Shown here one piece after another: positions 8,060-41,136 of a DNA stretch of 64,000 nucleotides (the first letter of the stretch is position 1; the number at the start of each line of letters is the position of its first letter). The stretch is taken from assembly GCA_963971535.1 (NCBI GenBank), contig OZ020587.1:157021471-157085470 (forward strand), given 5' to 3'. This stretch comes from Notolepis coatsorum (lineage: Eukaryota; Chordata; Actinopteri; Aulopiformes; Paralepididae). Both the position numbers and the translations under genes were made by a program. The notes beneath the pieces are model-generated. The model was not told the origin of the DNA. It searched no databases and saw nothing but the letters and a program-made list of their open reading frames with translations.

Positions 8060-9199
8060 CAACGGATGCTGCTCAACGTATGCTGTCGTCATTGTCTCAT
8101 CACCCAGACTGCACTGCACTTGTGCTGCCCCGCCTCCCAGAATGCACCTGTGCGGCAGCTTCCTGGCTGCTACCTCATGTCTCTCTGCATCGTTAAGACT
8201 GGTGAGTACTGCATGGCAATAATGTCGATTATGTTGTATGTTGTATGTTGTATGTATGCTTTCGATTGCAAACGCCAGCGGAGTAGTGCCGTGTTCGTTT
8301 TTACATGGTAGAGAATATTATATTAACCGTTATTCATGCCTGCTAGCTGAAGCTAATTTAGCTAGTAGCGTTAGCAGTTAGCTATGATGAATGTTTCTTG
8401 ATTTTGGTGTTTAGTGATATCCACCTGTATATATACTGTTATACATTTTATGTAGGCTGACGCTCTTAAGCGCGGTGAAAATGAGTGCTGCGAAACTATT
8501 GAAAGAAGTAATGTAACAAGCGGTAGATACAATGTGCAAGCACTGGAGTCATATTGGGAGTTGGGGCTAACTAGCTTAGCTCTGTGGAAGAGCCGTGGTA
8601 AATCTAGGGACGTTAAGGCGGCGAGGTGAGAGATTTGACGAAACACTGTGGAAGATATTGTTGTTAAGAAGCGAGTCGAGTGGTTCGTTGGTGTGATTGT
8701 GGCCGTATTAATGGTTATATTTAATGCGGTAATAAGTGTAAGACGATGTTGTTATGGAGAAGCAGTCGCGGGTTGATGATGTCATATTGTGGGACGTAGG
8801 AAGGGGAGCATGAGGCTGGCTAGGCTGTTAGCTTGCGTGCGACTGTTTTGTGAGTTTGCGGGCGACATGTGTTATGATTAGAGTTTTGAAAATGATGGTT
8901 AGGAAGTATTAGAGGACGCGGTGGATGTCGTGGCATTGTATTAGGACGAAACTGAGTGTTTTGTGATAATAGTTGTACGTTGTCGCGGTGTACATCGGTT
9001 GCTGTGCGTTTGCGCTTCTGCGCATGCGCGTTACAACGCGGATCGCTGTTTTTTCTTTTCATTCGCTCTGGGGATGGATAACGGGTGAGGAAATATTTGG
9101 CATTGTGTTCAAATGTTTGTATTTGTATATTGATATTGTATGTTTGTGTAACAAGGGGAAGAGATGTGAAATGTATGATGATTAGATTATGGGAGTATG
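8060..9199. promoter_or_regulatory. CpG-containing, promoter-like leader region
   Basis: Compared with neighbouring AT-rich DNA this stretch has many CpG dinucleotides, especially 8690-9060. Near its start is a plausible 5' exon ending AAGACTG followed by the donor-like GTGAGTACTG at about 8201. It lies just inside the left end of the 18.8-kb element and upstream, on the plus strand, of the two unrecognised exons. That would suit their promoter. This is inference from composition only. Confidence 0.3.
8229..8458 (+). repeat. Duplicated segment, empty-site copy
   Basis: This 230-bp segment is repeated downstream as two halves: 9200-9289 and 15988-16127. Here the two halves are continuous across ATAT at 8320-8323. 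In the second copy the 6.7-kb DUF7869 transposon sits between them and ATAT is duplicated. The pair is an occupied and empty target site within one window. Confidence 0.9.
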
Positions 9200-9289
9200 T
9201 TGTATGTTGTATGTTGTATGTATGCTTTCGATTGCAAACGCCAGCGGAGTAGTGCCGTGTTCGTTTTTACATGGTAGAGAATATTATAT
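9200..9289 (+). repeat. Left half of occupied duplicate site
   Basis: Near-identical to 8229-8323, including the GTTGTATGTTGTATG run and the TTTCGATTGCAAACGCCAGC block. It ends in ATAT (9286-9289) immediately before the transposon end. The right half resumes at 15988 with ATAT and continues to about 16127. Confidence 0.88.
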
Positions 9290-9313
9290 GTGACCCCGAC
9301 CAGTGCTATAGCC

Positions 9314-9925
9314 CAGGGGTTCCCAAACTTTTCAGGCCGGGGCCCAGAAAATAAGGCGTCAGAGAGCCGCGGCCCAATGCACATCGTCTGGCCTTTTTTT
9401 TTTGTTTTTTTGCCAGGCGACCGATTTTTTAAGCCAAATATCACTTCAATCCTATTAAGTTAGTTCAAGTTAGTTATTCATTTATATGTGCTATTTATGA
9501 GAGGGCTAACTTGTTGCAAAATAATAATGATAATAATAATAGCCTCATTAAAATACTATTGTTGCTTCGGTTGTTTTCAGCGTTTTATGTGCATAATCTG
9601 TTATTTAGTTTGAAATGTTCGTTGAAATAAGTAGATTTTTCGTTTTTGTTTATTTATTAAGTTAATATAAAACCATATAGTCACATTTTAGAATACAATA
9701 GAATAGAATTTTAGAATACAACTAGAAACACTGTCCTGGCCTGCTTCTAAGTTCAGTGACCTGACAAAAAAAATAAAAATAAAAAAATAAAAAATAAAAA
9801 AATAAAAAATTTAAAAAATGTTTTTTTTTTTATTTTTATTTTTTGTTTTTTAAATCATCTCGCGGCCCATCCGTGGCTGCTCGCGGCCCACCTTTGGGTC
9901 GCGACCCCGACTTTGGGAACCACTG
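9314..9925. mobile_element. hAT-type non-autonomous element
   Basis: Ends match the hAT-Charlie style: CAGGGGTTCCCAAACTTTT at the left and AAGTTTGGGAACC-type sequence closing in CCACTG-compatible order at the right (GGGAACCACTG to 9925). Flanks CTATAGCC (9306-9313) and CATAGCCT (9926-9933) share ATAGCC and may be an eroded 8-bp target duplication. The interior is non-coding, with an AAAAATAAAA-rich stretch at about 9770-9850. It is nested in the DUF7869 transposon. Confidence 0.75.
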
Positions 9926-10745
9926 CATAGCCTACATGTCTATTTTTTCATTTTCCAGATTTTTCCAGATTGTGAAAGTACAGAATGTAAGCTTTCAAAT
10001 GATGTGTCATACTTTGAAATCTGAGAATGTTATTATTGTGATGTGCTAATTTTAAATCTTGTAGCAGTCTTTTTTCCCCAGAGACCTAAGCAGAGAAAAC
10101 AGCTCTTAAAGATTTGACACCTTTTGCCAGGATTCTGCTGGGCGTAAACAATACCTCCCAGCCACACCTCTCCCCTGAATAGTATTAACATAATTAAGTG
10201 CTGTGACAGCCATGCTGACAGATCAGATACAAAATCAAACATTTTCTATTGTAGTAGTAATATAACTACTAGTCTGAATAATGTATATTTCAGTTATTGA
10301 ATTGAAAACCTTTATTTATGTATTCCAATATCTGTTTTATTGATTAATGATATATTTTGAAAGAATGCAGGTTATAGCTGTATAAAACAAATGTCTGTCC
10401 CATTGTACCAATCAATGGGATATATTGCATGTTGGCTATAATGATTTTATAAAAAAGAGAGAGATTAAATTCATGGCCATATATTTATACATTCATGTGA
10501 CATCACAGCATATTCTTTGTATAGCCCAGTGTTTCCTGAAAACAGATATGTACAGTGTTCAGGTTATACATCTATCATTACACAATTACAACCAAAATAG
10601 GAAGAAATTATGTTGACCGCAGGGAATTGTAATGCATAGTTGGTAGAACTGGCCAGCGGAGTGATAGACACAAGCCTCATTATTATCATTATCATTATCA
10701 TTGTTCCAACCTTTCATGTGACAACTGGATGAAAATCAGCAGACA
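9926..10745. other. Non-coding interior of the DUF7869 transposon
   Basis: No exon, RNA or repeat family recognised. It lies 3' of the transposase-like gene, which is read leftwards. Confidence 0.4.
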
Positions 10746-11690
10746 ATATCAAATCAATTCAAGAGGTTTATTAGTCACATACATACCAGGGCATACAGTG
10801 AAATGCGGGTGGTCATGCCCGCATCGATTGTGCAATAATACTAATAATAAAATACATAAACAGGTAATAAGAAGGCATAAGATGTGCATGATAAAAATAG
10901 ACATGCTGATACAGTTTCAACTCTGTTATTATGCTATACTACAATAATCTAAACTATACAAGAACCACGTCGGTTCTTTCCTTTAAAGTGACCTTTCCAT
11001 TTAGTTTAAAGTGACATTTTTTTTTATTAATTGCATATCATACCAGGGCATACAGTGAAATGCGGGTGGTCATGCCCGCATCGATTGTGCAATAATACTA
11101 ATAATAAAATACATAAACAGGTAATAAGAAGGCATAAGATGTGCATGATAAAAATAGACATGCTAATACAGTTTCAACTCTGTCATTATGCTATACTACA
11201 ATAGTCTAAACTATACAAGAACCACATCGGTTCTTTCCTTTAAAGTGACCTTTCCATTTAGTTTAAAGTGACATTTTTTTTTATTCATTGCATACCAGGG
11301 CATACAGTGAAATGCGGTTGGCCATGCCCGCTACGATTGTGCAATAAAACAATAGTAATAAAAATATAATGTACATGTATGATGTACCGGTACACAACAA
11401 TACAATTCTTCTATGTCCCTATGCTATACTAGTACTACTATACTATCAAGTCAAGTCAAGAATGCAATAATAAGAATCCAATAGGATGAGAATGCGACAT
11501 TGTGCAATAATACAAGTAATAAGAACAAGTAATAAGAATAAGACATATCAGGTATATGTACATGAGTTTTACAAAAGCTTTTACTCTACAAGAACCACTC
11601 CTGTTCTTGTTTAATTTTTTTAAAGTGACCTTACATTGTGAGCGTGTGCAGCATGAGTGTGTGTGTGTGTTCATGTTAAAGTGACTGCTA
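10746..11690 (-). mobile_element. Rex1-like LINE 3' UTR fragments, tandemly duplicated
   Basis: On the minus strand this matches the 3' end of the LINE at 52035-54816. Shared landmarks are GCATACAGTGAAATGCGG, GCCCGCATCGATTGTGCAAT, AAAGTGACCTTTCC, the GTGTGCAGCATGAGTGTG block and a TCAAGTCAAGTCAAG tail at 11448. A unit of about 255 bp is repeated head to tail, starting near 10784, 11041 and 11294. No coding sequence remains. Confidence 0.75.
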
Positions 11691-11693
11691 GTA

Positions 11694-11697
<4 letters not shown>

Positions 11698-11731
<34 letters not shown>
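11698..11731. repeat. (TG)n microsatellite
   Basis: Uninterrupted TG dinucleotide run just downstream of the stop codon of the DUF7869-type gene, which lies on the other strand. Confidence 0.95.
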
Positions 11732-11732
<1 letters not shown>

Positions 11733-13098
11733 CTACATCCATGTGTCTAACATCGTACAGTCTTCTTGTTCTGAGGTGCTCTAGATGTTGGGAGTGGGCA
11801 TGTAATGTCTTTTGCGTCATCAGAACAGTATTGTCTTATCTCCTTATAAAGATATTCCTGTCGGTCATTGTCTAGACCAGGTGGGGGGAGGACAGGAAAA
11901 CCAGAGATGGTTGGGTAGCGTTTTGGGTCTTTCAACAGCTGAAACGTGAATGGCTCTGTATCGTCACAGTGTAATTTCGCCGTCACCATGCCAGGACTGT
12001 TGGCATCGAAGCTGAAGTGCTGGTATTTCTTTATTTGTGGGAATCTTTTGAAGAAGCCTCCGAGATGTTGCTGCCAGTCGTAGCTTGGAACATAAACTGT
12101 GCCATCTTCGCGACCGACAAGTTGGGGGATATTGACTCCTTTCACTGCAGAGCTTTTCCTGACGATGTCTGCGATGCCTGCCAGGGTGTCGACCGCAGTC
12201 TTCCTGTAAACCTGCTTTATCAAACCAAAGCACCAGTCGGGGCCAAATTTAGTGTGGCCTGCAATTAGGAAGTGGAGAGCAAGCTGCAGGTGAAGTTTGT
12301 GAATAGTACGCCACGCAAAATACCACAAGACATAATTGTTTTTATTTTGCCCGGAGCAATTGTCGCAGTGCAGGTCCACTGATTTTTCTCCAACTCCATA
12401 GTTGGTGAAGAAATGATCCACATAGCTGATAACGGCATTGCTGCCTTTACCAGTTGACATCCCTTCATCAATTAGGTAATTCACTTGCTTCGTCAGCCCT
12501 TCACAGTGGACACCGAACAGGCCACATTTGCGCGGTGTTTGAAAAAAGATGGGACCCACTTGAAAAGGGTGAGATGGAAAATGAACCTGCGGGACAGAGA
12601 AAGAAGAAAAAGAAAAAAGGACATTGAAATAAGGGACATTGAAATAAGGGAACAGGGGAGGAAATTAGGCCACTTTACTAGCCAAATGCAAGTATTTTTT
12701 ATGTTTGGCGAGTGATTCATGAAAAAATACTGCTAAAACTATAAGGAACTATTTTTACATTAAAAATTCTCCTCTCTTTTCCTATTCTCTCCTCTCGTCT
12801 CCTATTTTCTCTCTCCTCTCTCCTCCCACTCTCATCTTATCTAAATACACTCCAAATACAACTCAAACGTTCCTGTAAGTTTTCCTTTAACAACAAAAAG
12901 CAACATTATATTGGATATTCACCTGCTGTGCGTAATCAAAGCTGTAGTGCATCGTGATATCTCTGCTTGCAGGTGGGGAGGGGCCTAGCGACAGATCCAT
13001 GTTCTCGGCGCATGTGCGCTTTGTGGCGGCAGTCATCTCCTGCAACAGCTCGCGTTCTCTGTCAAGATTGCAGAATGGGTACAACACAGTACGGCTCA

Positions 13099-13100
<2 letters not shown>

Positions 13101-13148
<48 letters not shown>
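13101..13148. repeat. (AC)n microsatellite
   Basis: 24 AC units. It sits beside a GATTGCAGAATGGGTACAAC fragment of the short repeat family seen at 13493, 14567, 30840, 36874 and 47000, directly against the 5' edge of transposase exon 4. Confidence 0.95.
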
Positions 13149-13150
<2 letters not shown>

Positions 13151-13492
13151 CTAATGAGGTGGCAGTGCTCAGTTATCCTCAGGTTATCCTAATGTCATGT
13201 GTGTTGAAGCTAGGGCTGGGCGATATGGCCTAAATATGATATCACGATATTTTCTGACCTTTCGGCGATACACGATACACATCACGATGTTTTTCTTTTT
13301 TTCCCCAAACAATTCATTATGAGGCTTACCAAGACAGTATTCGAGTTTGCAAGCTAACATTAAAGACAAAATAAAATACCCATGCATTTAGCATTTTTAT
13401 ATTATATATTAGATTTAGATTATTGGATTATTAGATTATATATTGCATATATTTAGCAATGAGATATTATATGATTTAGATATGAAATATGA

Positions 13493-13640
13493 TTAATTGA
13501 AAATGGGGGACCCTGATGTAAACAAGACGAAAGTCTTTCTCTGGTCTGCATCCCCTTAACAATTGTATGTATTGAGCTGTACTGTACCCATTCTGCAATA
13601 TGTTAATAAAGTTTTAAATCAATCAATCAATCAATAGCAT
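13493..13640 (+). repeat. Short LINE-tail-like repeat with (ATCA)n
   Basis: The unit contains TTGAAAATGGGGGACCCTGA, CTTTCTCTGGTCTGCATCCC, ATTGAGCTGTACTGTACCC and CTGCAATATGTTAATAAAG, and ends in AATCAATCAATCAATCAAT. The AATAAA-type signal followed by a tetranucleotide array resembles the 3' end of a LINE with a microsatellite tail. Related copies lie at 13689-13803, 14567-14716, 30741-30930, 36874-36893 and 47000-47150. The parent element is not identified. Confidence 0.65.
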
Positions 13641-13688
13641 TTTAGCATTTTTATGAAACTACTGTATATTTGTATGTCTCTAAATGTT

Positions 13689-13803
13689 TTGATGAATTGA
13701 AAATGGAGGACCCTTATGTAAAAAAGGCAAAAGTCTTTTTCTGGTCTTCATCCTCCAGTCCACTGTTGTTGTATTGAGCTGTACTGTATTGTACCCATTC
13801 TAT
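13689..13803 (+). repeat. Second, diverged copy of the short repeat
   Basis: Shares TTGAAAATGGAGGACCCTTA, the TCTGGTCTTCATCC block and TATTGAGCTGTACTGTATTG with 13493-13640. It lacks the tail array. It lies in intron 3 of the transposase-like gene. Confidence 0.6.
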
Positions 13804-14566
13804 GTCATCATCGGACGTTGCTATGTTTGGGTAAATACTGTAAACAAGCCACTATGGACGGGGGTACAGGGGAATAGATGGTGGTAAAAAACAGTCTGTA
13901 GTGTAGTAGTGAAAGTAGACTGTACACACCTGGAGTTTCTCCACCTGCAACTTCTCTGGCCTTCCCGCGGCTTGCTGTAATTGGTGATTGTTGGAGTAGC
14001 ATTGAGAACACAGATCTGTCCTGGGTTTTGTGATCATTATCTGCGGAAGGAGTGCTTTCCACAACCGAAGGAAGGATCTCTGACCAACAACACGAAATCC
14101 TGAAAAGACAAGTGTTTTTGTTAGATTGGTAGAATAAGAAAAAGTGGGAACCATGTGTGTGTGTGAGAGAGAAAGAGAGAGAGCAAGGGGTGGTTTTGTG
14201 ACATACCTTCTATACTGCTGTAAAGGCGCCACAGGGAAGCTTTGGTCAGATTGGTTGGCAGTAACTTTGCAGTGAAATCCTTGTGACCAGCATGACGGCC
14301 AGGCAACACAATCGCATGGAGGACAGCAAAGTTGATCAGAAATTTCACAACCCTTTTTACGTCAAAAAGAGACAAAAAACGCTTGTGATTTCTCGGCTGT
14401 TTCTTCCTCTCCCGCGGTGTGAGGCCATCTGTCTTGTAGTGTTTGAAAAGGCTTTTGAGAAGCGCATTGCTGATCCTAAACAAAAATGTTAACAATAGGG
14501 AAGAGAATTAATGAATGAAATACACACATTGTACACACTGTATCTGTATGTCATATATTATGTTAT

Positions 14567-14716
14567 GATGAATTGAAAATGGGGGACCCTGATGTAAACA
14601 AGATGGAAGTCTTTCTCTGGTCTGCATCCCCTTAACAATTGTATGTATTGAGCTGTACTGTACTGTACCCATTCTGCAATCTGTTAATAAACTTTTCAAT
14701 CAATCAATCAATCACT
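14567..14716 (+). repeat. Third copy of the short repeat, with (CAAT)n tail
   Basis: Almost identical to 13493-13640 and ends TTAATAAACTTTTCAATCAA plus further ATCA units. It lies in intron 1 of the transposase-like gene. Confidence 0.7.
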
Positions 14717-15987
14717 CTTGTTTACATTCAGGTGTAGTTTTTAAGAATCCCTATCCTAGCGATGTGCATTACAAAATGGCCGCACAAAAACTACACTACC
14801 CAGAATATCCAAAATGGACGCCCTCGCAGGGTAGAATAGGATTCGACGACTATATCTAGACTTTAACACCTATTTAAACCGATTTATTGCTATTGCTAAA
14901 CATACATATACGTCCAATACAATACATCTACGTCCAATACAATATACAAGCATAAAGACACTTACCCATAAATGAAACAGAACGTTGGACGACAGACAAC
15001 AACGTCGTGAAATCTGTATGTTGTCCTCGAAGCCACACGGTCAGCGTTCACTCTCTTGGTACTTTGCGTTTTCTCTGAAACATTTTGGCATGTTCCAATA
15101 ATGGACAACAGACACATGTCCCTTTCTCTTGGTGTCAACGACGCGGTGTCCAATCGGTTTTGGTAAATTAGCTCAACCGACAGTTTTTTTTAACAAGACA
15201 GGGCAGATCGTTCTGAATTTTCCTTTCGGCGCGCCTGGCACTTGCAGTGGAAAGCGTTTATCTTTCTGAGTTCCTCTTCTATTTCGCCCTCCACCGTTAA
15301 ACCAGACATCTTTTCAACTGATCGCATGGTCGATTCAGCTGAAAAGCCCAATGCTACAGTTTCAACGCAAATGTCTCCGTCTTCCTCTGTTTCACCATCG
15401 TCGGTAGGTTCGATTGGATCTGGGACAATGATGCCTGGCCCCTCGGTCTCCTCGTCGTCAGATGATAGATCTGGTCGGTCACCACCGTCGTCGCTGTCAG
15501 TCATGTAATCAGTGATGTGGTCACTCATTAACGCCGAGGAGTCTATACTCATTCCATCTCTTCCTCTATTAAGAGCAACTGATAATTTTTGTGCGGCCAT
15601 GTCGATGTTATCTAAGCAGCAAACAAGTGTTGTGGGCTACAGGTGCTGTGAATATAAACACCACACCGTGTGGGGGCGTACCTCACATCAACAGCAGCCT
15701 TTCACATGCAAAAATAGGACAGCCCGAGGGAACTGACCCCACAGCTTCGTGAGAGACGATCAGAGTATGTCTCAAGGAGCCATTTTTAAACACAATTTAA
15801 ACACAATTAGAGTTATTATATATGTTCGCTGTTATACTAAATATGTTCTTCAACCCTCGAACTGTAAGTATATATATAAAAAAAATAAAAAACGGAAATG
15901 AAAAAACAAATTAAATAAAAAATTCTTTCTCTTCTCGTGAGGAACCTGGGTCGCCGAGTTGTAGGCGCGCACGCTGGGCGGGGTCAC

Positions 15988-16127
15988 ATATTAACCGTTA
16001 TTCATGCCTGCTAGCTGAAGCTAATTTAGCTAGTAGCGTTAGCAGTTAGCTATGATGAATCTTTCTTGATTTTGGTGTTTAGTGATATCCACCTGTTGTA
16101 TATACTGTTATACATTTTATGTAGGCT
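15988..16127 (+). repeat. Right half of occupied duplicate site
   Basis: Begins with the ATAT target copy, then TAACCGTTATTCATGCCTGC and the GCTAGCTGAAGC block. It parallels 8320-8458 with about two small differences and ends near GTAGGCT. Confidence 0.88.
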
Positions 16128-17570: not shown

Positions 17571-20500
17571 GATTCAGATCTTTTTTACTTTGCCATAACA
17601 GTGTGATAATTTTCATTTATCCGGTTTTTGTGTTTACTCACCCTCTCTGCTGATCAGCTGGGCTAGTGTTTGCTACCTGCCCGCTGTCAGCGTCAGCTGT
17701 TAGCATCGTTAGCCCCGTTGTCAAACTAGCCAGCCGGCTTCCCTCTACTCCTGGGTTTTCGGTTTGGATCATCTTTTTTCCATCACATGTTTTTCCCCAA
17801 CTGGATTAACTCTCTACATGTACCTGGATTGTTCGTGAGTTCTGATCACTCCACCGCAGTGTGCTGTTGTCCGAGGCTGGATTCGTTGTGTGTGGCTGGT
17901 CGTTAGCCGGTTAGCTGCTCCGGTCGATATGCTAACATACTCCTCTCACCAACTTCGGAGCTTTTTCAACGCAGCTGCGCCAATCTGGCTGGATACCATC
18001 AGATCACTCGGACTCCTTCAACGCCCCCGCTATATACATCGAGCATCCCGCTACAAACTCACCTGCACAGATTCCACTATTCCAGTGGTAGTATCTGCTC
18101 TGCGCTTCCGTGTTGTTCATCAACGTCATCACAACACACCTCACGTGCGCACCAGCTGTCTGAAGCCCCTGGCCTGCTCAGACAGTAGCACCCCTCCCAC
18201 TCTGCCTGTCTCCTCCACAGCCACGTTCATGCTGCTCAATACTCGCTCCCTCAATAACAAGGCACTACTCATCCATGATATCATCACTGAAAGAAAACTG
18301 GATTTTTTATGTTTGACTGAAACATGGCAAAATAAACAGGATTTCATCACACTAAACCAAGCTACACCCCCTGGTTACATCTACCTCCAGAAACCGCGCT
18401 CCACGGGCCGTGGCGGCGGGCTGGCTGTCATTCATCGTACAGACTTCCAGGTCAAGGAGATCCCCACTCCTGATCTCACATCATTCGAATGCATTACATT
18501 CTCTCTCTCCGGATCTCCTGAACCTCAACCTCAATTCGCCCTGATTTACCGCCCCCCCAAAGCCTCCACCACCTTCCTGTCAGAGCTAACCGAGCTCCTG
18601 TCCTCCTTCTGCTCCAGGTCCCTCACCACCTATCTGCTCGGAGATTTCAACATTCATGTTGACTCCACCAACTGCAACTTTGCCGCTGATTTCCTGTCGC
18701 TTCTGGACTGCCTCAGCATCACGCAGCATGTCCAGGGCCCCACCCACTCCAAAGGTCACACTCTGGATCTGGTCTGCTCCACCGGTAACCCCCCCTCCCA
18801 CCTGCAGTGTCTAGACCTTGCGGTATCTGACCACCATGCCATTCTTTTCACTGTCCCTATCCCCCCGCCCAGGCAGCGCCCAACGCGCACCCTCACATTC
18901 AGGGACACCAAGTCAGTGTGTGCATCAGCCCTATCTGACCTCATCACTACCCACATGGCCCCGGTTCCCTCCGATACCTCCCCGGACACCTTAGCAGCCT
19001 GTTACAATGCCGCCCTCTCCCTCAGCCTGGACTCTCTGGCGCCCCTCAGAAGCCGGAATGTGTCCTTTCCTCGCCCTGCCCCATGGTTTACCTCTGACCT
19101 CCGCTCTATGAAAAGAGTGGGTCGACGACTGGAGCGACTCTCCAGGCGATCTGGCCTCACCGTCCACCGTCTGGCCTTCGTCGACCACGTGAGGTCCTAC
19201 AGAGAGGCTCTCTCCAAGACCAGGACCGCGTACTACTCCACCCTCATCACCTCACAGCAAAATAACCCCAGATCGCTTTTTTCAACCATAAATCGTCTCC
19301 TCCGCCCTCTCACTGCCTCCCACACTGATGCTCCTGACCTCTGCTCTAAGTTCCTGGACTTTTTCCAGGCTAAAGTGACTTCCATCCACCAACAACTCAT
19401 GGTGCCCGCCCCCTCCCCTCCTCACTTACCCCTGACGCCGGACTACATGCTCCCAGCTGCATCCCTCCATCCCCAGTGCTCTCTCTCCTCCTTCTCCCCA
19501 GTGGATGTTCCGCTGGTCATGAAGCTGGTTACCAGAGCCAAAGCTTCCACCTGCTCCCTCGACCCCATGCCTACGGTACTGGTCAAGGCCTGCCTTCCTA
19601 CCCTCTGCCCCATCATAACGGACATCATCAACTCCTCTCTGTCATCTGGAATAGTTCCCTCCTGTTTCAAAACCGCCTCCATCACTCCCATCCTAAAAAA
19701 GCCTGGTCTGGACCCTGAGGTGCTGGACAACTACCGGCCGATCTCCAACCTTCCTTTCCTAAGCAAAACCTTGGAAAGGGCAGTCGCCGCCCAGCTTCAT
19801 CAACATCTGTCCAACCATGAGCTCTACGAACCCCTTCAGTCAGCCTACCGAGCACATCACAGCACAGAGACCGCCCTCATCAAGATCACTAATGACCTCC
19901 TCCTTGCTGCAGACTCCGGACACATCAGCCTCCTCATCCTTCTCGACCTCTCCGCGGCGTTCGACACAATATCCCACTCAGTCCTCCTCAAATGCCTCTC
20001 CGACAACCTAGGCATCACCGGTACAGCTCTGTCATGGTTTCATTCATATCTCACTAATAGATCTCAGTTTGTCAGCGTCAGCGGCTCATCCTCCCCCCCG
20101 GCCCCAGTCAACCACGGTGTCCCCCAGGGCTCTGTGCTGGGTCCCCTACTATTCACCATCTACATGCTCCCCCTCGGTCAGATTATACGTCACCACGGAC
20201 TCAACTTCCACTGTTATGCTGATGATACTCAGCTCTACATCAGCACCTCACCATCCTCCCAGCTCCCCCCACAGTCTGTAGTCAACTGCCTCCACGCTAT
20301 AAAAACCTGGATGGCAACCAAATTACTCAAACTCAACAGCAAAAAGACAGAGCTCATGGTTGTGGCCCCCAAGGCACTGCTCGGGAAGGTTGGAGATCTC
20401 CTCCTCCACGTTGACGGCTCTTCCATCTCCCCGTCTCTCGAAGTCCGTAACCTGGGCGTCACCCTTGACTCCACACTTTCATTTCACTCCCACATCAAAT

Positions 20501-21222
20501 CTGTCACCAAGTCTGCCTTCTACCACCTCAGGAACATCTCCCGTCTCCGACCCTCACTCTCAGACTCTGTGGCGGAGACCCTGATCCACTCATTTGTCAC
20601 CTCCCGGTTGGACTATTGTAATGGAGTCCTGTTCGGGGTACCCAGCAAAGCCCTGGACAGGCTCCAGTATGTCCAGAACTCAGCTGCCAGGGTTCTCACT
20701 CACACCAAGCCCTGGCAGCACATCACCCCCACCCTCATCCATCTCCACTGGCTTCCAGTCAGGTTCCGCATCACCTTCAAACTCCTGCTCCTCACCTACA
20801 AATCCCTCCATGCCCTCGCCCCCCGGTACCTGTCTGATCTCCTCCACCAGTACACTCCATCCCGGAACCTACGATCCTCTGATCTAGGTCTCCTCTCCAT
20901 CCCTCGCACCAGGTTACGGACTTTTGGGGACAGAGCCTTCAGCGTGGCGTCCCCTACCCTCTGGAACTCTCTCCCCCCCGAAATCCGCAACGCCCCAACC
21001 CTGGACACCTTCAAATCCGCTCTAAAAACACACCTCTTCACCAAGGCTTTCCCCATCAGTTAGTTTTAGATTAAATTAGGTCCATTATCCCCTACTTTCC
21101 CTCATCCCCTCTTCCCCCTCCCCCCCTACTTTCCTTGCCCTATTTTTTGTCCTGATTGTAAAGCGACCTTGGGTTCTATGAAAGGCGCTATATAAATTTG
21201 ATTTATTATTATTATTATTATT
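17571..21222 (+). mobile_element. Full-length L2-clade LINE
   Basis: Inserted in the 21-bp satellite: the left flank ends GGGTCTATCA (17570) and the right flank resumes ATCACAGTGTTTAGACGG (21223), so the satellite reads through with a 4-bp ATCA duplication. A leader of about 360 bp precedes an uninterrupted ORF. The 3' UTR ends GGCGCTATATAAATTTGATT plus (TTA)n, the standard L2 tail recognised by the L2 reverse transcriptase. An intact frame and clean borders suggest a recent insertion. Confidence 0.88.
17929..21063 (+). CDS. L2 endonuclease-reverse transcriptase polyprotein
   Basis: 1044 residues from the first in-frame ATG; the frame is open further upstream, but without an ATG. The protein nicks target DNA and copies the LINE RNA in place. 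An AP-type endonuclease occupies about residues 95-330: LLNTRSLNNK, LTETW, GRGGGLAVIHR, LLGDFNIHVD, HTLDLVCS and SDHHAILF are all present. The reverse transcriptase is at about 500-800: NYRPISNLPF, QSAYRAHHSTETAL, LLDLSAAFDTI, GVPQGSVLGPLLF and the catalytic CYADDTQLY. The C-terminal region has LHWLPVRFRI, the L2-typical block. No stop or frameshift is seen, so it may be translatable. There is no separate ORF1 in the insert. Confidence 0.9.
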   Translation: MLTYSSHQLRSFFNAAAPIWLDTIRSLGLLQRPRYIHRASRYKLTCTDSTIPVVVSALRFRVVHQRHHNTPHVRTSCLKPLACSDSSTPPTLPVSSTATFMLLNTRSLNNKALLIHDIITERKLDFLCLTETWQNKQDFITLNQATPPGYIYLQKPRSTGRGGGLAVIHRTDFQVKEIPTPDLTSFECITFSLSGSPEPQPQFALIYRPPKASTTFLSELTELLSSFCSRSLTTYLLGDFNIHVDSTNCNFAADFLSLLDCLSITQHVQGPTHSKGHTLDLVCSTGNPPSHLQCLDLAVSDHHAILFTVPIPPPRQRPTRTLTFRDTKSVCASALSDLITTHMAPVPSDTSPDTLAACYNAALSLSLDSLAPLRSRNVSFPRPAPWFTSDLRSMKRVGRRLERLSRRSGLTVHRLAFVDHVRSYREALSKTRTAYYSTLITSQQNNPRSLFSTINRLLRPLTASHTDAPDLCSKFLDFFQAKVTSIHQQLMVPAPSPPHLPLTPDYMLPAASLHPQCSLSSFSPVDVPLVMKLVTRAKASTCSLDPMPTVLVKACLPTLCPIITDIINSSLSSGIVPSCFKTASITPILKKPGLDPEVLDNYRPISNLPFLSKTLERAVAAQLHQHLSNHELYEPLQSAYRAHHSTETALIKITNDLLLAADSGHISLLILLDLSAAFDTISHSVLLKCLSDNLGITGTALSWFHSYLTNRSQFVSVSGSSSPPAPVNHGVPQGSVLGPLLFTIYMLPLGQIIRHHGLNFHCYADDTQLYISTSPSSQLPPQSVVNCLHAIKTWMATKLLKLNSKKTELMVVAPKALLGKVGDLLLHVDGSSISPSLEVRNLGVTLDSTLSFHSHIKSVTKSAFYHLRNISRLRPSLSDSVAETLIHSFVTSRLDYCNGVLFGVPSKALDRLQYVQNSAARVLTHTKPWQHITPTLIHLHWLPVRFRITFKLLLLTYKSLHALAPRYLSDLLHQYTPSRNLRSSDLGLLSIPRTRLRTFGDRAFSVASPTLWNSLPPEIRNAPTLDTFKSALKTHLFTKAFPIS

Positions 21223-31021: not shown

Positions 31022-31870
31022 CATGCTAGCATACAGGCACAGGTCATAGATACTGGTCAACCGTGTCATGCTAGCATACAGGCACAGGTCATAGATACTG
31101 GTCAACCGTGTCATGCTAGCATACAGGCACAGGTCATAGATACTGGTCAACCGTGTCATGCTAGCATACAGGCACAGGTCATAGATACCAACAGTGTCAT
31201 GCTATACAGGCACAGGTCATAGATACCAACAGTGTCATGCTATACAGGCACATGTCATAGATACCAACAGTGTCATGCTAGCATACAGGCACAGGTCATA
31301 GATACCAACAGTGTAATGCTAGCATACAGGCACAGGTCATAGATACCAACAGTGTAATGCTAGCATACAGGCACAGGTCATAGATACCAACAGTGTCATG
31401 CTAGCATACAGGCACAGGTCATAGATACCAACAGTGTCATGCTATACAGGCACAGGTCATAGATACCAACAGTGTCATGCTAGCATACAGGCACAGGTCA
31501 TAGATACCAACAGTGTCATGCTAGCATACAGGCACAGGTCATAGATACCAACAGTGTCATGCTAGCATACAGGCACAGGTCATAGATACCAACAGTGTCA
31601 TGCTAGCATACAGGCACAGGTCATAGATACCAACAGTGTCATGCTAGCATACAGGCACAGGTCATAGATACCAACAGTGTCATGCTAGCATACAGGCACA
31701 GGTCATAGATACCAACAGTGTCATGCTATACAGGCACAGGTCATAGATACCAACAGTGTCATGCTATACAGGCACAGGTCATAGATACCAACAGTGTCAT
31801 GCTATACAGGCACAGGTCATAGATACCAACCATGTCATGCTAGCATACAGGCACAGGTCATAGATACCAA
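31018..31870. repeat. Minisatellite, 36-45 bp unit
   Basis: About 20 copies of a unit carrying GTGTCATGCTAGCATACAGG and CACAGGTCATAGATAC. The first four copies have TGGTCAACC (45 bp), most others have CAACA (41 bp), and some lack CTAG (about 36 bp). Confidence 0.95.
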
Positions 31871-34800
31871 CCTATCACACCTATCACACCTCTCACACCT
31901 ATCACACCTCTCACACCTATCACACCTATCACACCTCTCACACCTCTCACACCTCTCACACCTCTCACACCGATCCCACCTATCACACCTATCACACCTA
32001 TCACACCTCTCACACCTATCACACCTCTCACACCTATCACACCTCTCACACCTATCACACCTATCACACCTCTCACACCTCTCACACCTATCACACCTAT
32101 CACACCTCGCACACCTATCACACCTCTCACACCTATCACACCTCTCACACCTCTCACACCTATCACACCTCTCACACCGATCACACCTATCACACCTATC
32201 ACACCTCTCACACCTCTCACACCTCTCACACCTATCACACCTATCACACCGATCACACCGATCACACCTATCACACCTATCACACCTATCACACCTCTCA
32301 CACCTATCACACCTATCACACCTCTCACACCTATCACACCTATCACACCTATCACACCTCTCACACCTCTCACACCTATCACACCTCTCACACCTCTCAC
32401 ACCTCTCACACCTATCACACCCATCACACCTCTCACACCTATCACACCTATCACACCTCTCACACCTATCACACCTCTCACACCTATCACACCTCTCACA
32501 CCGATCCCACCTATCACACCTATCACACCTCTCACACCTCTCACACCTATCACACATATCACACCTCTCACACCTCTTACACCTATCACACCTCTCACAT
32601 CTCTCACACCTCTCACACCTATCACACCTACCACACCTCTCACACCTATCACACCTATCACACCTCTCACACCTCTCACACCTCTCACACCTATCACACC
32701 TCTCACAACGATCCTACCTATCACACCTATCACACATATCACACCTATCACACCTCTCACACCTATCACACCTATCACACCTCTCACACCTATCGCACCT
32801 ATCACACCTATCACACCTCTCACACCTCTCACACCGATCCCACCTATCACACCTATCACACCTCTCACACCTATCACACCTCTCACACCTCTCACACCTA
32901 TCACACCTCTCACACCTATCACACCTATCACACCTCTCACACCTCTCACACCTATCACACCTCTCACACCTCTCACACCTATCACACCTCTCACACCTAT
33001 CACACCTATCACACCTCTCACACCTATCACACCTCTCACACCTCTCACACCTATCACATCTATCACACCTCTCACACCTTTCACACCTATCACACCTCTC
33101 ACACCTCTCACACCTATCACACCTATCACACCTATCACACCTCTCACACCGATCCCACCTATCACACCTATCACACCTCTCACACCTATCACACCTATCA
33201 CACCTCTCACACCTCTCACACCTCTCACACCTATCACACCTATCACACCTCTCACACCTCTCACACCTTTCACACCTCTCACACCGATCTCACCTATCAC
33301 ACCTATCACACCTCTCACACCTATCACACCTCTCACACCTATCACACCTCTCACACCTCTCACACCTCTCACACCTCTCACACCTATCACACCTCTCACA
33401 CCAATCACACCTATAACACCTCTCACACCTATCACACCTCTCACATCTCTCACACCTCTCACACCTATCACACCTATCACACCTCTCATACCTATCACAC
33501 CTATCACACCTCTCACACCTCTCACACCTAGCACACCTCTCACAACGATCCTACCTATCACACATATCACACCTCTCACACCTATCACACATATCACACC
33601 TATCACACCTATCACACCTCTTACACCTATCACACCTATCACACCTCTCACACCTATCACACCTCTCACACCTATCACACCTCTCACACCTATCACACCT
33701 ATCACACCTCTCACACCTCTCACACCGATCCCACCTATCACACCTCTCACACCTATCACACCTCTCACACCTATCACACCTCTCACACCGATCCCACCTA
33801 TCACACCTATCACACCTCTCACACCTATCACACCTCTCACACCTCTCACACCTATCACACCTATCACACCTATCACACCTATCACACCTCTCACACCAAT
33901 CACACCTCTCACACCTATCACACCTCTCACTCCTCTCACACCTATCACACCTCTCACACCTCTTACACCTATCACACCTATCACACCTCTCACACCTATC
34001 ACACCTATCACACCTCTCACACCTATCACACCTCTCACACCGATCCCACCTATCACACCTATCACACCTCTCACACCTATCACACCTCTCACACCTATCA
34101 CACCTCTCACACCTCTCACACCTCTCACACCTCTCACACCTATCACACCTCTCACACCAATCACACCTATCACACCTCTCACGCCTATCACACCTCTCAC
34201 ACCTATCACACCTATCACACCTCTCACACCTCTCACACCTATCACACCTCTCACACCGATCCTACCTATCACACCTATCACACCTCTCACATATCACACC
34301 TCTCACACCTATCACACCTATCACACCTCTCACACCTCTCACACCTATCACACCTATCACACCTCTCACACCTCTCACACCTCTCACACCTATCACACCT
34401 CTCACACCTATCACACCTATCACACCTATCACACCTCTCACACCTCTCACACCTATCACACCTATCACACCTCTCACACATATCACACCTATCACACCTC
34501 TCACACCTATCACACCTATCACACCCATCACACCTCTCACACCTATCACACCTATCACACCTCTCACACCTATCACACCTCTCACACCTATCACACCTAT
34601 CACACCTCTCACACCGATCCCACCTATCACACCTATCACACCTTTCACACCTATCACACCTCTCACACCTCTCACACCTATCACACCTCTCACACCTATC
34701 ACACCTCTCACACCTATCACACCTCTCACACCAATCACACCTCTCACACATCTCACACCTATCACACCTCTCACACCTCTCACACCTCTTACACCGATCC

Positions 34801-36868
34801 CACCTATCACACCTATCACACCTCTCACACCTATCACACCTCTCACACCTCTCACACCTATCACACCTCTCACACCTATCACACCTATCACACCTATCAC
34901 ACCTCTCACACCTATCACACCTATCACACCTCTCACACCTATCACACCTCTCACACCTATCACACCTATCACACCTCTCACACCTCTCACACCTATCACA
35001 CCTCTCACACCTCTCACACCTATCACACCTATCACACCACTCACACCTATCACACCTCTCACACCTCTCACACCTATCACATCTATCACACCTCTCACAC
35101 CTTTCACACCTATCACACCTATCACACCTCTCACACATATCACACCTATCACACCTCTCACACCTCTCACACCTATCACACCCATCACACCTCTCACACC
35201 TATCACACCTCTCACACCTATCACACCTATCACACCTCTCACACCTATCACACCTCTCACACTGATCCCACCTATCCCACCTATCACACCGCTCACACCT
35301 ATCACACCTATCACACATCTCACACCTCTCACACCTATCACACCTCTCACACCTATCACACCTCTCACACCTATCACACCTCTCACACCAATCACACCTC
35401 TCACACCTATCACACCTCTCACTCCTCTCACACCTATCACACCTCTCACACCTATCACACCTATCACACCTATCACACCTCTCACACCTCTCACACCTCT
35501 CACACCTATCACACCTCTCACACCGATCCCACCTATCACACCTATCACACCTCTCACACCTATCACACCTCTCACACCTATCACACCTCTCACACCTCTC
35601 ACACCTCTCACACCTCTCACACCTATCACACCTCTCACACCAATCACACATATCACACCTCTCACACCTATCACACCTCTCACACCTCTCACACCTCTCA
35701 CACCTATCACACCTATCACACCTATCACACCTATCACACCTATCACACCTCTCACACCTCTCACACCTATCACACCTCTCACAACGATCCTACCTATCAC
35801 ACCGATCACACCTCTCACACCTATCACACATATCACACCTATCACACCTATCACACCTATCACACCTCTCACACCTATCACACATCTCACACCTATCACA
35901 CCTCTCACACCTATCACACCTCTCACACCTCTCACACCGATCCCACCTATCACACCTATCACACCTCTCACACCTATCACACCTCTCACACCTCTCACAC
36001 CTATCACACCTCTCACACCTATCACACCTATCACACCTCTCACACCTCTCACACCTCTCACACCTATCACACCGCTCACACCTATCACACCTCTCACACC
36101 TCTCACACCTCTCACACCTATCACACCTATCACACCTCTCACACCTATCACACCTCTCACACCTATCACACCTATCACACCTCTCACACCTATCACATCT
36201 ATCACACCTCTCACACCTTTCACACCTATCACACCTCTCACACCTCTCACACCTATCACACCTATCACACCTCTCACACCTATCACACCTATCACACCTA
36301 ACACACCTCTCACACCTATCACACCTATCACAACTATCACACCTATCACACCTATCACACCTATCACACCTCTCACACCTATCACACCTATCACACCTCT
36401 CACACCAATCACACCTCTCACACCTATCACACCTCTCACTCCTCTCACACCTATCACACCTCTCACACATCTCACACCTATCACACCTATCACACCTATC
36501 ACACCTCTCACACCTATCACACCTCTCACACCTATCACACCTATCACACCTCTCACACCGATCCCACCTATCACACCTATCACACCCCTCACACCTATCA
36601 CACCTCTCACACCTATCACACCTATCACACCTATCACACCTATCACACCTCTCACACCTATCACACCTATCACACCTATCACACCTCTCACACCTCTCAC
36701 ACCTATCACACCTATCACACCTATCACACCTCTCACACCTTTCACACCTATCACACCTCTCACACCTATCACACCTATCACACCTATCACACCTCTCACA
36801 CCAATCACACCTATCACACGTCTCACACCTCTCACACCTCTCACACCTATCACACCTATCACACCTCT
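31871..36868. repeat. 5-kb satellite of 9-bp unit
   Basis: About 550 tandem copies of TCACACCTA or TCACACCTC in irregular mixture, with rare variants such as CCGATCCCAC, ACAACGATCCTACC, TATCACATCTATC and TCACTCCTC. The 9-bp period is divisible by three, so frames stay open for hundreds of codons on both strands (Ser-His-Leu, Gly-Val-Ile and Arg-Cys-Asp-Arg patterns). These are not proteins. The rare variants recur together about 1-2 kb apart, which points to block amplification. Confidence 0.97.
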
Positions 36869-37125
36869 ATACCCATTCTGCAATCTGTTAATAAAGTTGT
36901 ACTTAAGTTATGCTTTTACATTATACTTACTTAATAAGTGAATAATTCCAAGTCAATCAAAAATTATGAGTTTTATTTACTCAAAACATAATGCGGTTTA
37001 CAGTCTGTATCTACTTAATTATCTTAAGTTGTACTTAAGTTATGCTTTTACATTATACTTACTTAATAAGTGAATAGTTCCAAGTCAATCAAAAACTATG
37101 AGTTTTATTTACTCAAAACATAAGA
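36869..37125. repeat. Short repeat end plus 129-bp tandem duplication
   Basis: Right after the satellite is CCCATTCTGCAATCTGTTAA with TAAAGTT, the short repeat family in plus orientation. A 129-bp unit beginning GTTGTACTTAAGTTATGC then occurs twice (36894 and about 37023) with few differences. Confidence 0.85.
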
Positions 37126-37958: not shown

Positions 37959-40900
37959 ATTGAACAGGTGGATATAATAACATTCACGTTGCAACAGCAG
38001 CTTGTGTCTGTCTCCACCTCGTGCTGGCCTGAGTACTAACTCTAGTCCCATATATTTGAGATCGTTGACGGTATGTTTACACTTAGAGAAATGTCGAGCT
38101 ACCGATGACTTGACATCTGAATTTCACACAGCACATTTGTGTTAACTTATTCTTGATTTAAAGGCTCTTGTTGTTTTGCCCACATAAGAAAAATTACAAG
38201 GACATTTTAACAAATACACCAGATTGGACGAATTACACGTAATCCGTCCTTTGACTGGGATATTTTTCCCCGTTTTTGGATGTGCGAAAAATTTATCTTT
38301 AATCATACCCTGGCACTGTACACAGGATTGGCAGGGAAAATTCCCATCTGGGATATTGGACATAAAATGAGAAGGTTTCTTTAAGGGCAAATCAGTTTTG
38401 ACTAGGAGATTAGATAAATTCGCTTGTCTCTTGTAAAAATAGTTAGGCGAATGCTGAAACGCTGTCCCTATAAGAGGGTCGGACTGCAGAATATGCCAAT
38501 GTTTATTGACAATACTCTGTGTGTCTCTCGTAATAGGGCTGTAAGTAGACACAAAAGATACTTTGTCAGGTTTATCTTCTTTCTTTCTGGGGGTAAACAA
38601 CGTGGCCCTATCGATATGCTTTAGTTTTATTCAAGGCTTTGAGTGTCAAATCGGCACTGTATCCTCTCTCGTGGAAACTGCCACGGAGCACCTTTGCTTG
38701 TGCAATAAATGTATCGTCAGTATCACATATTCTCTTATAGCGAAGTATTTGGCTATAAGGAAGACTGTTCTTCAAGGCTGGGGTGTGATAACTAGAATAA
38801 TGCAAGAACGAGTTACGGTCTGTCTCCTTTTTAAAAAGCCATCAAGGGCTTTCTTGATCAGAACATCGAGGAAGGGTAAATTATGCATATCAAACTTTAA
38901 TGTAAACTTTATCGTTCTTCTACAGGAGTTCAGGTACTCAAGGAAGGCAAAAAGCTCAGATGATGAACCAGACCAAATAAAAAACAGATCGTCAATATAG
39001 CGCATATACGATTTGACACATTTCTCAAACGGGTTATTATTAAAGATATGATCTACTTCATATTTGGACATATAAAGATTGGCTAGGTTCACAGCGGCTG
39101 GAGAGCCCATGCTGAGGCCTCTGTTTTGCAAATAGTATTTATCTTGGAATCTAAAATAATTTCTAGTTAGAACTAGATCGGTTAAACTAACCAGCGCTTC
39201 TGTAGGGGGGAGTAATACTTCCCTCGAGTTTAAATAAAAACTCAGCGCGTCTAGCGCATCAGCATGTGGAATGCTGGGGTAAAGACTGACTACATCTATG
39301 GTAACTAGTAAGTCTGTAGGACTAATGTTGCAGGACGAGAGCCTGTTCAAAAAAGTAGTAGTATCCTTCAAGTAACCACGCTGAGAAGAGGCCAAATCCT
39401 TAATATGCGCATCAATGAACTGAGAGATTTTTTCTGTGGCAGAGCCAATACCGGAAACAATAGGTCTACCAAGAGGGTTAATCAGATCCTTATGGATTTT
39501 AGGTAAAGTGTAAATAATAGGAGTAACCGGGTACTCTACGAACATAAACTTAAATTAATTTTCTGTAATTGCCTCCGACAATCTCAGGCTTTTAAGGACC
39601 GTTTTGATTTCCGTAGACAATCTAAACACAGGGTCTGAATTTAGAAGGGTATATACCTCAATCTCATTCAATTGTCTGTTTATCTCAGATACATACAAGC
39701 TCTTATTTTGGAGCACGATACCAGAACCCTTGTCAGCTTTTCTAAAAATGAAATCATCTTTCTTCATGAGCTCCTTAAGTGCTGCAGACTCTGATTCAAG
39801 TAAATTTGGATAAAGATGGGCTTTGTGACTGGTCTCACATAACTTAAGGACATCATTTTGTACCAGTCTGCAAAAAGTTTCAACTGAGGGAGGATTGAGA
39901 TGGGGAGTAAACAGGCTACGGGGTTTAAATACTTTTCTTTTAGAAGTGTCTGGCTCTGTCTCAGGCCTAGCATCAGCATCAACGTCATCACTTATCAACA
40001 CATTTTCATTAGCATATTGAGTTCTCTTATCAAACCCTCTGGCATAAAATGCTTTCAACTTAATATTTCTAAAAAACTTATATAACTCTACCTTGGTAGT
40101 AAATGCATCCACCTTGCGGGCTAGGACAAAAGATAAACCTTTAGACAGGATATTGTGGTGTGGGTCGCTCAATAATACATCTGAAATGTTGACAATGTTA
40201 GATGTAATGCTCATCACCGGAACCATGGATTTCTTCCTCTGGCCCCGCCTCGTCTTCCTATGGGTTCTCTCTCCGGTCGGGGAGGAAGCGGAGCGTCCTG
40301 CTCGCCTCGAAAAACAGACTGGCTCTGGAGCGGGTATCTGCCCCGCTGAGAGGGCGCCTCGTCGGAGCTCACCGCTGTGGAGGAGGAGTCCGTATGCCGT
40401 TGCCTGTCTCTGGGCTGCCAATTCAGCCTGCGGTTCCTGGAAGGTGGATTGTGGAGCCATGGGTACACCATATGCGTTGCGTAGTCTTGCTCATCTCTTC
40501 TCTTGTGCAGCTCAATGTCATGTTTATACTTATCGAGTTTCTGGTTCACTGACTCGAGCAGTTCGGTCAGTTGGTCAGGGGTTAGAATGGTTTTAATTTC
40601 TTCCTCTAACAAGGAAAGCTCCTCTCTGACTTTGGCTAATTTAGAGCCTTCATTATCTATGATTAAAAGAAGTAGATCCATAGAACACTTATCCAGGATC
40701 GAACACCACTTTTCACAGAACTCAGGTGATTCTCTTCCCAGCGTGGGTTCTTTGTTGATGCGAAGGCCCCTCGGTATGATGGCATCCTGCCAGTATTTGG
40801 TGAGGGTCATACCGTGGAGTAGGGTACGTGTCTCTCTCTGCCTTAGACATGAGAGCGACAAGGCCAGTGCTTCTCTTCCTTTGGGTGGAGGTGCCGAACT

Positions 40901-40972
40901 CTCTGGCACTGGGAATAAACTGCAGATTCTGTCACTTTCCACCTTTGAATAAGCATGGCCTCTTTTCTCCAT
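37922..40972 (-). pseudogene. Penelope RT and GIY-YIG polyprotein, broken
   Basis: Read on the minus strand. The N-terminal ORF (40972-40214) has a coiled-coil-like acidic stretch (VREELSLLEEEIKTIL). A frame change near 40250-40400 then enters the RT part: RKADKGSGIVLQN, TLPKIHKDLINPLGRPIVSG, IDVVSLYPSIPH, LSMGSPAAVNLANLYM and the catalytic YMRYIDDLFFIW. An in-frame TAA (39557-39555) interrupts ITEN-FKFMFVEYP. Frameshifts follow near 38830 and 38630. The GIY-YIG endonuclease starts TFTPRKK-type sequence and includes YLLKCPCNFSYVGKTTRAFK, then TAA and TGA stops near 38145 and 38120, before HKLLLQRECYYIH at the end. It normally copies its RNA at a GIY-YIG nick. This copy cannot make the full protein. 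Confidence 0.85.
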
Positions 40973-41136
40973 ATTTAGCAGTGTGAGCTGCTGTCGTCCT
41001 CGAGGGAATTGGGTTCGTAGAAAATGTTTGGAGCTGGAGGTCTCGAAAGCTATTTGGGTAGCTTTGAATCAATATAGTCAAGTTAGACCGCGCTCACAAG
41101 TTCTCACACTGGGTGCTGTAATCCCATAAAGTTCAG

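Follow-up and report, generated by a model that had tools for sequence, protein, structure and literature searches.

A probable Sola2-like DNA transposon and its candidate DUF7869 transposase in Notolepis coatsorum, with relatives in Deltaproteobacteria

The element at 9290..15987 and its gene

The window analysed here is a 64,000-nucleotide stretch of the genome of the fish Notolepis coatsorum (assembly GCA_963971535.1, contig OZ020587.1, forward-strand positions 157,021,471 to 157,085,470). At 9290..15987 it contains a DNA transposon of 6698 bp, a nested insert included, whose gene encodes a candidate transposase of the DUF7869 family. As an earlier note on this DNA had described, the element has imperfect inverted terminal repeats of 16 bp with 2 mismatches. 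They start GTGACCCCG and lie at 9290..9305 on the plus strand and at 15972..15987 on the minus strand, reading GTGACCCCGACCAGTG from 9290 and GTGACCCCGCCCAGCG from 15987 (minus strand). The tetranucleotide ATAT stands directly outside both of them (9286..9289 and 15988..15991).

A degenerate pattern for the ends, GTGACCNCGNCCAG, has exact matches at both ends of the element and nowhere else in the window. When up to 2 mismatches are allowed, it matches 3 times, against 2.47 expected by chance, so that the borders rest on an empty site and on copies elsewhere in the genome. The earlier note had placed a paralogous empty site at 8229..8458, and this placement held: when the element and one ATAT are removed, the joined flanks align with 8230-8462 except for 3 mismatched bases and a single gap, the target ATAT falling at 8320-8323. 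This is a paralogous repeat some 960 bp away, which gives the target sequence and not an empty allele. Since ATAT is palindromic, three readings would suit this locus equally well: a duplication of 4 bp, a TA duplication of 2 bp, or longer ends and no duplication. Other copies are needed to choose among them.

Close to the left end, at 9314..9925, lies a nested non-autonomous insert with ends CAGGGGTTCCC..GGGAACCACTG and an imperfect flanking duplication, which we take to be hAT-like. It is missing from 12 of 14 left-end loci and present at the window's own locus and at one other (L053), where it sits in the same place within different flanking DNA; a copy bearing the insert may therefore have moved.

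The gene lies on the minus strand, from 15600 to 11747, and has about five exons, which total 2050 bp and would encode about 680 amino acids. Its splice borders were read by eye. Exon 1 (14966..15600, 3′ border by eye) is interrupted in the window copy by an in-frame TAA at 15190-15192; exon 2 (14207..14475) was bordered from its splice sites, also by eye; and exon 3 (13930..14099) carries a CxxC motif (TDLCSQC) that precedes the three aspartates discussed below. The 3′ border of exon 3 and the 5′ border of exon 4 (12923..13058) are uncertain, the join between them by 2 bases. Exon 4 contains the first proposed catalytic aspartate, in HYSFDYAQQ (codon 12935-12937), and exon 5 (11747..12586), which holds the DUF7869 domain, contains the proposed second, in HCDNCSGQNKNN (codon 12362-12364), and third, in GHTKFGPD (codon 12236-12238). 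Exon 5 matches the Pfam profile PF25273 (DUF7869) with an E value of 5.8e-14 and 52.6 bits, the curated cut-off being 26 bits, which bears out the earlier assignment of the gene to this family. The exact patterns DNCAGQNK and DNCGGQNK have no match in this genome.

The exon structure is collinear with a bacterial relative, L129, that is encoded by a single open reading frame (ORF). The second part of exon 1 corresponds to residues 82-156 of that protein, exon 2 to 162-242, exon 3 to 252-306, exon 4 to 345-359 and exon 5 to 360-637, and the part of exon 1 before the stop has no significant match in it. This collinearity supports both the exon 4-5 join and the assignment of the first aspartate to exon 4. 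With exons 4 and 5 concatenated, the aspartates of the window protein are spaced 78/41, as they are in six of eight bacterial proteins; the two most distant bacterial proteins have 77/41 (L141) and 80/40 (L142).

Seven other copies were inspected for interruptions of exon 1. The same TAA occurs in one (L003), other stops occur in two (L002, L008), and four (L004-L007) are open throughout. With its in-frame stop and nested hAT-like insert, the window copy is probably not functional itself, and since copies with an intact exon 1 exist, it has probably been moved in trans, if at all.

Copies in the genome and the target site

We searched the 3.42-Gb assembly with the ends and the gene; each set of copies includes the window's own, and all counts are lower bounds. 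The 300 bp at the right end have at least 40 copies at 96-100% identity (best 40 of 748 candidates). A query of 200 bp from inside the left end has, among the matches listed from 1446 candidates, at least 40 copies at 100% and one at 84%, and exon 5 has at least 40 at a rounded 100% (best 40 of 595). Judged by these identities, the element family is young and multicopy in this genome. The DUF7869 domain exceeded the Pfam cut-off at all 150 of the places scored, out of 639 candidates.

Ends and gene occur together, a point that the earlier note had proposed to test. All 14 left-end loci, the window's (L056) counted, start GTGACC(C/G)CGACCAG, with position 7 either C or G and with ATAT directly before; among the right-end loci, ATAT follows in seven of eight (again with the window), and the eighth, L005, has changed last bases. 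For the right end, 19 of 40 listed matches have a listed exon-5 copy on the expected strand within 6 kb, and for the left end 11 of 40 do; both counts include the window. Starting instead from the gene, we took the ten best-listed exon-5 copies other than the window's and inspected the stretches where their ends were expected; 4 of these 20 stretches were places already known (left ends C8:170 and C8:71, right ends C4739 and C4564). The left end was found for six copies, the right end for six and both for four, and all four complete copies have matching flanks (ATAT in three, AAAT in one). The ends enclosed no other transposase in the copies examined.

Two further lineages of DUF7869 genes are present in this genome, 54% and 65% identical to exon 5 of the window element, and all three lie inside GTGAC-type ends. 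Nonsynonymous divergence (dN) between the three is 0.29-0.45, which, taken alone, suggests that the DUF7869 protein may be under selection. Across the three lineages, 24 of 26 copies in which both ends were seen have identical 4-bp flanks, ATAT in 22 and AAAT in 2; AWWT, by comparison, occurs at 2.5% of window positions. The window lineage contributes 14 of 15 such copies, the window included; its one mismatch is ACAT/ATAT, in a copy that has the flanks of another listed copy, so that those two are not independent. Matching flanks were found in three of three copies of the second lineage. The gene-side end of that lineage was found at 27 of 30 loci and is followed by ATAT at 23 (in one of which the last bases are changed), AAAT at 2 and ATTT at 2, a count slightly biased towards ATAT because the search pattern itself contained ATAT, with up to 3 errors allowed. 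In the third lineage, whose second end is GTGCC in some copies, seven of eight copies match, a count that omits one copy with a truncated left end, and for 4 of 10 copies the sequence retrieved lacked at least one end.

Three copies of the third lineage lie on one strand of a single contig at an exact spacing of 3888 bp (G000 C43:71212501, 71216389 and 71220277); this trio is either a tandem array or an effect of assembly.

The copies flanked by AAAT settle the length of the duplication. From ATAT alone, a Tc1/mariner-like element with TGTGACC.. ends, a TA duplication and an ATAT that is partly element sequence would parse as well as the arrangement proposed here. AAAT, which occurs as a direct repeat around C4739 of the window lineage and around L093/L094 of the third, cannot be parsed as a TA duplication, and AAAT and ATTT occur as single flanks in the second lineage. 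The duplication is thus 4 bp long, as the earlier note had read it from ATAT, the 2-bp reading is excluded, and we give a Tc1/mariner-like origin virtually no credence. As a candidate family, Tc1/mariner was rejected on these direct repeats.

Bacterial relatives in AWWT-flanked elements

The earlier note had described the gene as belonging to a multicopy metazoan family. Its high copy number is borne out by this genome, and the restriction to animals did not stand. A scan of prokaryote genomes found four DUF7869 loci: Desulfocicer vacuolatum DSM 3385 has one, and the other three are in metagenome-assembled genomes of Deltaproteobacteria. Within the same order, a profile search (A5) of 389 genomes gave matches in 11. 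Three of them were already known, four have further long proteins (L139-L142), and in the last four fragments were matched. A PF25273 search of the phylum found one genome of 395, that of Desulfocicer again. Fourteen control genomes gave no DUF7869 match. The eight bacterial proteins are each encoded by a single ORF; the shortest, truncated by the contig end, has 577 amino acids and the longest 731. They are 25-46% identical to exon 5 of the window element, and all eight exceed the DUF7869 cut-off, with 56.5-89.9 bits.

Terminal repeats were identified for six of the eight, at both ends in L129, L130, L139 and L140 and at one end in L131 and L132. Those four elements read at both ends span about 2.1-2.7 kb, and their ends are of the GGSG type. 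AWWT adjoins all ten readable bacterial ends, against a background of 1.8-5.8% of positions in those loci, although the boundaries were placed by eye where a GG-rich repeat begins beside AWWT, a procedure that favours this reading. These single-ORF DUF7869 proteins in AWWT-flanked bacterial elements are new here.

In L129 and L130 the DUF7869 gene is the sole ORF of at least 300 amino acids between the terminal repeats. This bears on the possibility that the gene of the window element is a passenger and that the element is mobilised by another transposase encoded elsewhere in the genome. The stop codon lends that possibility something, in that the window copy would need an enzyme from another copy. 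The bacterial arrangement stands against it, as do the presence of three DUF7869 lineages within GTGAC-type ends and the near-identity of exon 5 among the copies listed, and we regard a passenger gene as very improbable.

Identity to exon 5 falls to 30% in L141 and 25% in L142, two bacterial proteins in which SMDYGQ or SLDYQQ takes the place of the HYSxD motif. Divergence of this kind indicates a wider range of DUF7869 proteins in bacteria than one would judge from the close relatives. IMG/VR contained no relative of the three exons from the window genome, and plasmids and phages contained none when the bacterial L130 was the query. In a tree of the three window-genome and eight bacterial sequences the split support is 42/97 and L140-L142 stand on long branches; with its key forks unsupported, the tree can be read neither for the direction of any transfer nor for nesting within bacterial diversity.

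Mechanism, classification and significance

We observe the co-occurrence of gene and ends, a 4-bp duplication, near-identical copies and a conserved spacing of the aspartates. Together with the three lineages inside GTGAC-type ends and the insertion-sequence-like relatives in bacteria, these observations agree with the earlier note, which had offered the protein as the transposase of this element, and we consider it almost certain that the element is a transposon moved by its DUF7869 protein. In the mechanism we propose, the DUF7869 domain would be the catalytic core, with catalysis by three aspartates located in HYSFDYAQQ, HCDNCSGQNKN and GHTKFxPD. The enzyme would bind the GTGAC-type ends and join them to an AT-rich, near-palindromic target, AWWT and in most cases ATAT, at points staggered by 4 bases; gap filling would then duplicate the 4-bp target. 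Movement would be by cut-and-paste rather than copy-out. The reading as a whole, of a Sola2-like DNA transposon that is probably of the cut-and-paste type and whose own gene encodes a transposase with three catalytic aspartates (DDD), is in our judgement very likely.

Several observations weigh against it. In the gene-first sample, four of ten copies had one end only and two had neither in the stretches fetched. On account of the latter two, gene copies lacking these ends, which the earlier note had named as evidence against its reading, may exist; copies differ by insertions, and an end not seen may lie beyond the stretch fetched. Flanks fail to match in 2 of the 26 copies with both ends. Among the four bacterial elements with both ends, one (L130) has identical flanks; in L129, L139 and L140 both flanks are AWWT yet unlike (AAAT/ATTT, ATAT/ATTT and ATAT/ATTT, respectively), and a search for terminal repeats around L141 gave no convincing repeat. 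No known transposase was matched significantly in sequence searches of the PDB and Pfam: one PDB search gave a single weak match (E 0.026, THR5) and a second gave none, while the Pfam model for ISAzo13 (DDE_Tnp_ISAZ013) was matched below threshold by two of the eight bacterial proteins, with E values of 0.018 and 0.12. PHROGs gave no match, and NCBIfam only matches far below cut-off. The earlier note had suggested modelling the protein for an RNase H-like fold, and the result was uninformative, AlphaFold models from shallow alignments reaching a mean predicted local distance difference test score (pLDDT) of 50.8 (A5) and 41.1 (A6). These poor models have a strand-helix order near the second and third aspartates as an RNase H core would show, the first aspartate is not in a strand, and Foldseek searches with them returned nothing at E <= 0.001. 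We weigh the models and the fold searches neither way.

Sola elements, according to the founding paper, reportedly encode a DDD transposase and include bacterial members; DUF7869 elements, too, have bacterial members, in Deltaproteobacteria. The excerpts of PMC3627910 that describe Sola2 give 4-bp AWWT duplications (ATAT, AAAT and ATTT) and terminal repeats of 12-13 or 21 bp, and the Dictyostelium and Polysphondylium elements described there resemble the window element in their AWWT duplications, short imperfect repeats and single large transposase gene. ATAT and AAAT occur here as duplications and ATTT as a single flank; the transposase of one published element has 888 amino acids, against about 680 here (PMC3627910, same excerpts). 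The signature published for Sola2 is a 4-bp AWWT duplication, which makes the Sola2 group of the Sola superfamily the likeliest place for the element, and on the published description of ends and target we consider this filing probable. The earlier note, which knew of no link between such ends and this protein family, needs one correction here: short repeats with a 4-bp AWWT duplication have been published for Sola2 (PMC3627910, in the excerpts cited). We found no paper that names DUF7869.

The DUF7869 elements could instead form a superfamily of their own in bacteria and animals that shares AWWT with Sola2 by convergence or distant kinship. Consistent with this, no paper was found that prints the motif of the domain, the likeness to Sola2 is one of ends and target, and the terminal bases differ, GTGAC in the window genome versus GGSG in bacteria. 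Since duplication length, target consensus and repeat type all agree with the Sola2 elements of the PMC3627910 excerpts, we regard a separate superfamily as unlikely. Within that reading, bacterial and vertebrate proteins more than 40% identical would point to transfer rather than common descent. A single enzyme plan (CxxC module, D-78-D-41-D, AWWT) in bacterial insertion sequences and young vertebrate transposons, constituting its own superfamily and passed between domains of life, is in our view unlikely as well.

Other known groups differ from the Sola2-like element in their target or in the length of their duplication. piggyBac elements target TTAA, compared with AWWT here, and the window protein has no Pfam match to piggyBac. 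The 4-bp duplication of piggyBac/IS1380 is the same length as that found here, and ISAzo13/Zator elements have 3-bp duplications (both from the excerpts of PMC10045372), compared with 4 bp here. Zator/ISAzo13 was rejected as a family for the element on that difference.

The remainder of the window holds further repeats and gene fragments, which, the minisatellite apart, were identified by eye. An intact frame of 1074 amino acids at 17839-21063 (plus strand) reads as the endonuclease and reverse transcriptase of a long interspersed nuclear element (LINE), and two frames at 52422-54816 (minus strand) read as a second, different LINE. At 38142-41068 (minus strand) the frames resemble those of a Penelope-like element and finish in a GIY-YIG-like stretch. 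The minisatellite, at 31785-36941, covers about 5 kb and has several open frames on both strands, and two frames at 56486-57919 (plus strand) look like portions of a BTB-kelch gene.

With the element most likely in a known group, the novelty of these results lies in a likely function for DUF7869 and in its bacterial relatives, and not in a new kind of transposon. The vertebrate elements are tied to insertion-sequence-like elements of bacteria with the same AWWT flanks. Where the excerpts of PMC10045372 give prokaryote-eukaryote transposon pairs, this one does not appear, and the text of that paper nowhere mentions Sola2. With the ends, the target and the likely catalytic residues named, activity can be tested with young, near-identical copies. 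The window protein is a clear member of PF25273, a Pfam entry without a function that is here tied to ends and duplications, and a likely function is thus gained for a domain whose candidate sites across the assembly number in the hundreds. If DUF7869 has the transposase role that now seems likely, proteins annotated with it become suspect as transposon-derived.

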